A stretch of 64,000 nt of DNA. Origin: Tardiphaga sp. (GTDB taxonomy: Bacteria > Pseudomonadota > Alphaproteobacteria > Rhizobiales > Xanthobacteraceae). Under the pieces are notes generated by a model. The model did not search any database. It worked only from the letters and a program-made list of their open reading frames with translations, and was not told the origin of the DNA. Below are positions 2,036 to 38,811 of this stretch, piece by piece; position 1 is the first letter of the stretch, and each line of letters starts with the position of its first letter. The stretch is from positions 1 through 64,000 of the forward strand of contig NZ_JAQGJD010000294.1 in NCBI RefSeq assembly GCF_028290785.1, read 5' to 3'. The translations under genes were made by a program, and so were the position numbers.

Positions 2036-2054
2036 AATATAAAAGTGCGAAGCC

Positions 2055-2225
2055 ACGATGGCCGTTGAAGCACTCGATCCCGGAGCACCTACGAAAGTAG
2101 GTGGGCACCATGTAGCCAAGTCCACGGACCTGGCCAGGGACAGTTCCCGTGAGGATCGATAAGGCCCCGGGGATATGTGGCTCCTGACGCGCGACGCAGC
2201 CTCGCAGGAGCAATGTAGGCGTTAT
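2055..2225 (-). ncRNA. ssrS: 6S RNA (candidate)
   Basis: Conserved location between zapA and the 5-FCL gene, same strand; structured non-coding sequence including a perfect CACCTAC-TTTC-GTAGGTG hairpin (2086-2103). Ends are approximate. Confidence 0.6.
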
Positions 2226-38474: not shown

Positions 38475-38501
38475 AAAAAAAGAGCCGCCGTTTCCGGCGG
38501 C
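38475..38501 (-). terminator. Rho-independent terminator on minus strand
   Basis: Perfect 7-bp GC stem with GAAA loop followed by TC and T7. Confidence 0.85.
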
Positions 38502-38570
38502 TTTGAAGTTGATAACAGGGAGGCGTCAAACAGAGTGGACAGGAGCCACTCGGTGTCCGAACAAGGACAA
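38475..38570 (-). ncRNA. Candidate small RNA with anti-SD loop and intrinsic terminator
   Basis: Minus strand: GTCC-TTGTTC-GGAC; GAGTGG-CTCCTGT-CCACTC; unpaired CCTCCCT; GCCGCCG-GAAA-CGGCGGC-TC-TTTTTTT. Confidence 0.6.
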
Positions 38571-38689
38571 TTTAAGTAATATGCGAGAAAGCTTAATTGC
38601 TCGTAAATGAGCGGGTTTTGGTAAGGGGTTGTTTGCTATCAGCAGCCCATTGCGCTGTGCCAAAACGAGACGATGTCGAAGTCGTGATC

Positions 38690-38811
38690 GTTTCCCGGAC
38701 GCGCTGCGGCATCCTTATGGCGCTGCGCAGAGCCGGGATCCCGGTCATGCGCGAAACCGGGGCCCCGGCTCTGCGAAGCGATACTTCGTATCGCATCGCG
38801 CCCGGGGAACG
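38690..38811. repeat. Palindromic intergenic repeat, family A
   Basis: CGTTTCCCGGACGCGCTGCGGC...GCAGAGCCGGGATCCCGG...GGGGCCCCGGCTCTGCGAAGCG...GCGCCCGGGGAACG. Confidence 0.8.

Follow-up and report, generated by a model that had tools for sequence, protein, structure and literature searches.

SmelC671/Sm84 of Sinorhizobium meliloti and ReC71 of Rhizobium etli are small RNAs (sRNAs) with a common single-stranded CUCCCUGU between variable hairpins and a terminator at the 3′ end (PMC3927594, PMC2873474). In SmelC671/Sm84, this conserved single strand is described as the seed and the 3′ hairpin as the terminator, and the S. meliloti family closest to the RNA studied here has been likened to Qrr, with a single-stranded seed domain (PMC3927594). 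Pairing through anti-Shine-Dalgarno (anti-SD) motifs is an established mechanism for the rhizobial sRNAs AbcR1/2 and NfeR1 (PMC8844928). The cell-cycle regulator CtrA has the consensus TTAA-N7-TTAAC (PMC7200025). RcdA, an adaptor for CtrA proteolysis, is essential in S. meliloti, where it lowers CtrA, and ChIP-seq in the same species shows CtrA bound at the rcdA promoter region (PMC4433202).

Results

The window analysed here is a 64,000-nucleotide stretch of Tardiphaga sp. DNA, in which the initial annotation had proposed an independent sRNA of about 95 nt. The Rfam covariance model of BjrC1505 (RF02356) matches positions 38614–38475 of the minus strand at 138.7 bits (E 3.7e-27; gathering score 50 bits), and the alignment spans the whole model, 140/140 positions (1–140). 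The small RNA at 38475–38570 is a family already catalogued as BjrC1505, with one copy in the source genome. BjrC1505 is a Bradyrhizobium japonicum family (Madhugiri et al. 2012, doi 10.4161/rna.9.1.18008), and no function was found for it in the literature searched. The RNA family itself is known; the new parts are its putative cell-cycle promoter and its joining with SmelC671, neither of which is stated in that literature, a search that did not cover the founding BjrC1505 paper. Membership in suhB (RF00519)/AbcR (alpha-r15) was rejected at 22.9 bits against a gathering score of 41, a match driven by the terminator, and the mmgR and Phe-leader matches at the sRNA also fall under their gathering scores and are due to the terminator.

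The Rfam match, folding and covariation together delineate an RNA of ~94 nt (38475–38568, minus strand, 5′ end predicted). It has the RF02356 architecture of three hairpins, the last of which is an intrinsic terminator. Hairpin 1 (GTCC/GGAC, 38568–38555) is followed by hairpin 2 (38551–38533), whose covarying GAGTGG/CCACTC stem presents CTCCTGT in the loop, and by the single-stranded GACGCCTCCCTGTT (38527–38514), a conserved anti-SD segment with the universal part CTCCCTGT. The terminator (38502–38475) reads AGCCGCCG-GAAA-CGGCGGCT, then C and T7, and a terminator scan picks out the same stem. Both upstream hairpins and the unpaired anti-SD stretch were thus correctly described in the initial annotation, as were the GAAA loop and T7 of the terminator; its stem, given as 7 bp, measures 8 bp counting the closing A-U pair. 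The strand of 38570–38475 folds at −34.4 kcal/mol (z = −3.94), a value matched by 0/200 shuffles. In 19 divergent homologues, 96.1% of pairs are kept over the three hairpins, and 7/16 pairs have two-sided compensatory changes, spread over all three. Covariation, named in the initial annotation as a check, is as high as this in 0/500 shuffles.

While the hairpin sequences diverge, the invariant part of the RNA is the single strand (GACGC)CUCCCUGU. This motif is present in 32/32 loci of the window's own family and in 43/43 of Rhizobiaceae, as well as in 54/56 loci from the order's other families and 17/19 from the rest of the class, counts that are somewhat circular because the loci were chosen by a regular expression around the same motif. 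The CUCCUGU-type loop of hairpin 2, stressed in the initial annotation, is found in 32/32 own-family loci but in 32/56 loci of other families in the order, 5/19 elsewhere in the class and 0/43 in Rhizobiaceae. Because CUCCCUGU is kept where the loop is lost, the unpaired strand, not the loop, is the probable pairing segment.

The AT-rich stretch upstream of the hairpins contains a CtrA-type box, TTTA-CGAGCAA-TTAA (38593–38607, minus strand), at about −39 to −25 from the predicted start, and a putative −10 element, TATTAC (38576–38581, minus strand), aligned with TATTAC/TATGAC/TATAAC in related loci. The box is TTAA-N7-TTAA with one mismatch (TTTA). Allowing up to one mismatch, TTAA-N7-TTAA stands at a fixed distance upstream of the sRNA in 92/93 loci and, in a wider set, in 233/235 loci, 150 of them perfect; the loci are related and their counts non-independent, though they cover more than 40 families. 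The corresponding rate is 5.5–6.3% in shuffled sequence and 0.66% at other places in the loci. Outside the order, the box precedes the sRNA in 19/20 loci. A TTAA-N7-TTAA box near −35, as in the CtrA regulon, is thus apparent in the window, with one mismatch and with the position of the start as predicted. SmelC671 has a published length of 100 nt; measured back from the S. meliloti terminator, this length puts the 5′ end precisely on hairpin 1, with the box at −38 to −24 from it. A corresponding 5′ end for the window RNA would be near 38568, giving ~94 nt. The first ~45 positions of the RF02356 model are then probably promoter and no transcript, and their modelled pairs are largely non-standard in the window.

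The sRNA lies between a DUF1192 gene (PF06698, 38835–39026, minus strand) and rcdA (DUF1465, PF07323, 37804–38316, minus strand), its conserved upstream and downstream neighbours. The order DUF1192–sRNA–rcdA is kept: 192/209 loci have a same-strand rcdA downstream, usually after a gap of 150–400 nt. The possibility raised in the initial annotation, that the element is a mere 3′ UTR of DUF1192, was rejected: the sRNA has its own conserved promoter element, and the DUF1192 stop codon is ~265 nt upstream. Between DUF1192 and the sRNA promoter, 38718–38791 form a GC-rich imperfect inverted repeat, possibly a dispersed intergenic repeat, for which Rfam returned microRNA matches at chance level only. 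In 148/235 loci, the interval from the terminator to rcdA holds a second CtrA box, which the window's own family mostly lacks. This box often reads TTAACCCTTTCTTAA, and many own-family members have AATGATTTGTTCATCATAA in its place. Because this second box is near rcdA in many species, the published ChIP peak is not assignable to the sRNA promoter. Own-family loci are unusually strongly conserved around the start codon of rcdA (GCGTGAGGCGTTAACC-ATG; window start 38316).

Matches to RF02356 were obtained in 131/150 genomes of the same family, 205/249 of the order, 142/151 Rhizobiaceae (at a loose threshold, many weak) and 30/289 genomes drawn from the class. Own-family genomes with no match have either no detectable rcdA (four genomes) or a divergent rcdA. 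Four Rfam-negative genomes with rcdA have, by eye, a diverged element upstream of it, so Rfam undercounts the family. Outside the order, the sRNA and its CtrA box are found with a distant rcdA in G430 (about 41 kb) and G556 and with rcdA on another contig in G468; in G390, which also keeps the sRNA, no rcdA was found. In one metagenome-assembled genome, the sRNA core occurs twice at a spacing of 200 nt, possibly through tandem duplication.

The window RNA shares with SmelC671/Sm84 the single-stranded CUCCCUGU, variable hairpins and a 3′ terminator. In S. meliloti Ak57 (CP090106.1), a perfect CtrA box, the hairpins, UUUUUCUCCCUGUUUUACC and the terminator are found between DUF1192 and DUF1465. 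In motif, terminator and strand, this locus agrees with what is described for SmelC671, and 6S RNA is nearby in the same arrangement of order and strands. Specifically, 6S (−) and the sRNA (+) are 13.0 kb apart in Ak57, and SmelC667 (6S, −) and SmelC671 (+) are 14.3 kb apart in Rm1021, a discrepancy of 1.3 kb. Given this discrepancy, the Ak57 sRNA is very likely, rather than certainly, SmelC671, and SmelC671/Sm84, treated separately in the literature, very likely belongs to the same family as BjrC1505. The two RNAs are alike in the 100-nt length of SmelC671 and in the CtrA box and DUF1192/rcdA neighbours seen in Ak57; they differ in that SmelC671 lacks the loop-2 anti-SD and GACGC. SmelC671 scores 27 bits, under the Rfam threshold of RF02356, which explains why the families have not been joined so far. 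The window also contains 6S RNA (RF00013, 83.2 bits) at 2046–2205 (minus strand); the S. meliloti 6S gene is 13 kb from the sRNA, and gap (GAPDH) is nearby in both. CP090106.1, a 3.7-Mb sequence titled S. meliloti pSymB, carries tkt, gap, 6S RNA and rcdA and is probably a mislabelled chromosome.

Discussion

From the computed family membership, structure, motif conservation, CtrA box and synteny, we infer a CtrA-activated trans-acting sRNA with its own promoter and terminator that pairs with AGGGAG-type ribosome-binding sites and lowers translation, a reading to which we assign a probability of about 0.66. As its CtrA box overlaps the −35 region, the sRNA would most likely be activated directly, at high levels of phosphorylated CtrA, and its transcription would end at its own terminator. 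The predicted trans partners of the single strand GACGCCUCCCUGUU are purine-rich ribosome-binding sites (its complement is AACAGGGAGGCGUC, with ACAGGGAG as the universal core), and such pairing would lower translation of a set of mRNAs. A search of six genomes for ACAGGGAG-N3-10-ATG gave candidate targets among which exported and substrate-binding proteins are numerous, a trait also of AbcR targets; no convincing recurring ortholog set emerged across the six. Exported proteins make up 46% of ACAGGGAG genes versus 33% of matched AGGGAG controls in one related genome, which is no significant difference (p = 0.21). A pooled test gave p = 0.006, but as only two of the genomes supplied its controls, we place no reliance on it.

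The proximity of rcdA suggests other roles. The element could be an attenuated 5′ leader of rcdA, in which transcripts from the CtrA promoter usually stop at the terminator and sometimes read into the gene. The short same-strand distance to rcdA in most loci fits such a leader, as does the shared loss of RF02356 match and detectable rcdA in own-family genomes, but in many species a separate CtrA box follows the terminator, ahead of rcdA, and no conserved antiterminator was seen. Because the sRNA and its box are kept where rcdA is distant (G430, G556, G468) or undetected (G390), an independent sRNA is favoured, and we regard the leader as unlikely. The same persistence away from rcdA weakens the proposal that the sRNA chiefly represses rcdA mRNA in trans, sparing CtrA from proteolysis in a positive feedback. 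Adjacency of the genes and the role of RcdA in CtrA breakdown in S. meliloti (PMC4433202) would suit this proposal, and GAGGCGT in the own-family rcdA ribosome-binding site (GCGTGAGGCGTTAACC-ATG) is complementary to ACGCCTC of the sRNA. This complementarity is lost in other families despite the kept sRNA motif, so the site was rejected as a universal target; rcdA is a possible target in the own family only, and as the chief role its repression seems improbable.

The conserved part of the RNA is short and does not vary across a class, like a protein-binding site, and could sequester a protein or work via the ribosome itself. We consider this very unlikely relative to mRNA base-pairing, given that CUCCCUGU is a typical anti-SD seed, as in AbcR1/2, and that the closest S. 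meliloti family is described as having a Qrr-like seed (PMC3927594).

Judged by sequence conservation, BjrC1505 probably functions in the cell cycle as an RNA blocking ribosome-binding sites, since it is kept beside rcdA and behind a CtrA box across much of Alphaproteobacteria. It is also reasonably probable that a single ancient sRNA of Alphaproteobacteria, switched on directly by CtrA, underlies both BjrC1505 and SmelC671; with rcdA it would form a conserved CtrA-box–sRNA–rcdA module and a post-transcriptional arm of the CtrA cell-cycle circuit. The box is conserved from Bradyrhizobium relatives to Sinorhizobium and outside the order, which, if this reading is true, would place the RNA among the most widely conserved cell-cycle-linked sRNAs. 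One possible reason why CtrA bound near S. meliloti rcdA has no effect on rcdA expression is that it may drive the sRNA, an argument that is not decisive given the second box closer to rcdA.

Among known systems, EcpR1 (SmelC291) is likewise a broadly distributed Rhizobiales sRNA with a cell-cycle link, but it has the loop UCCGCCGCAUCU, adjoins divK-pleD and is under stringent-response control; loop motif and genomic place rule out that the window RNA is EcpR1. CcnA of Caulobacter crescentus, likened here by description only, is a non-coding RNA whose pairing loop is C-rich (CCCC) and for which a CtrA site is predicted; it differs from BjrC1505 in structure and genomic place. AbcR1/2 (alpha-r15) and NfeR1 resemble BjrC1505 in having CU-rich anti-SD motifs, through which they bind ribosome-binding sites, a pairing predicted for BjrC1505, but they use the motifs CUCCUCCC and UUCCCCUC, fold differently and have LsrB/RpoH1 promoters in place of the CtrA box.
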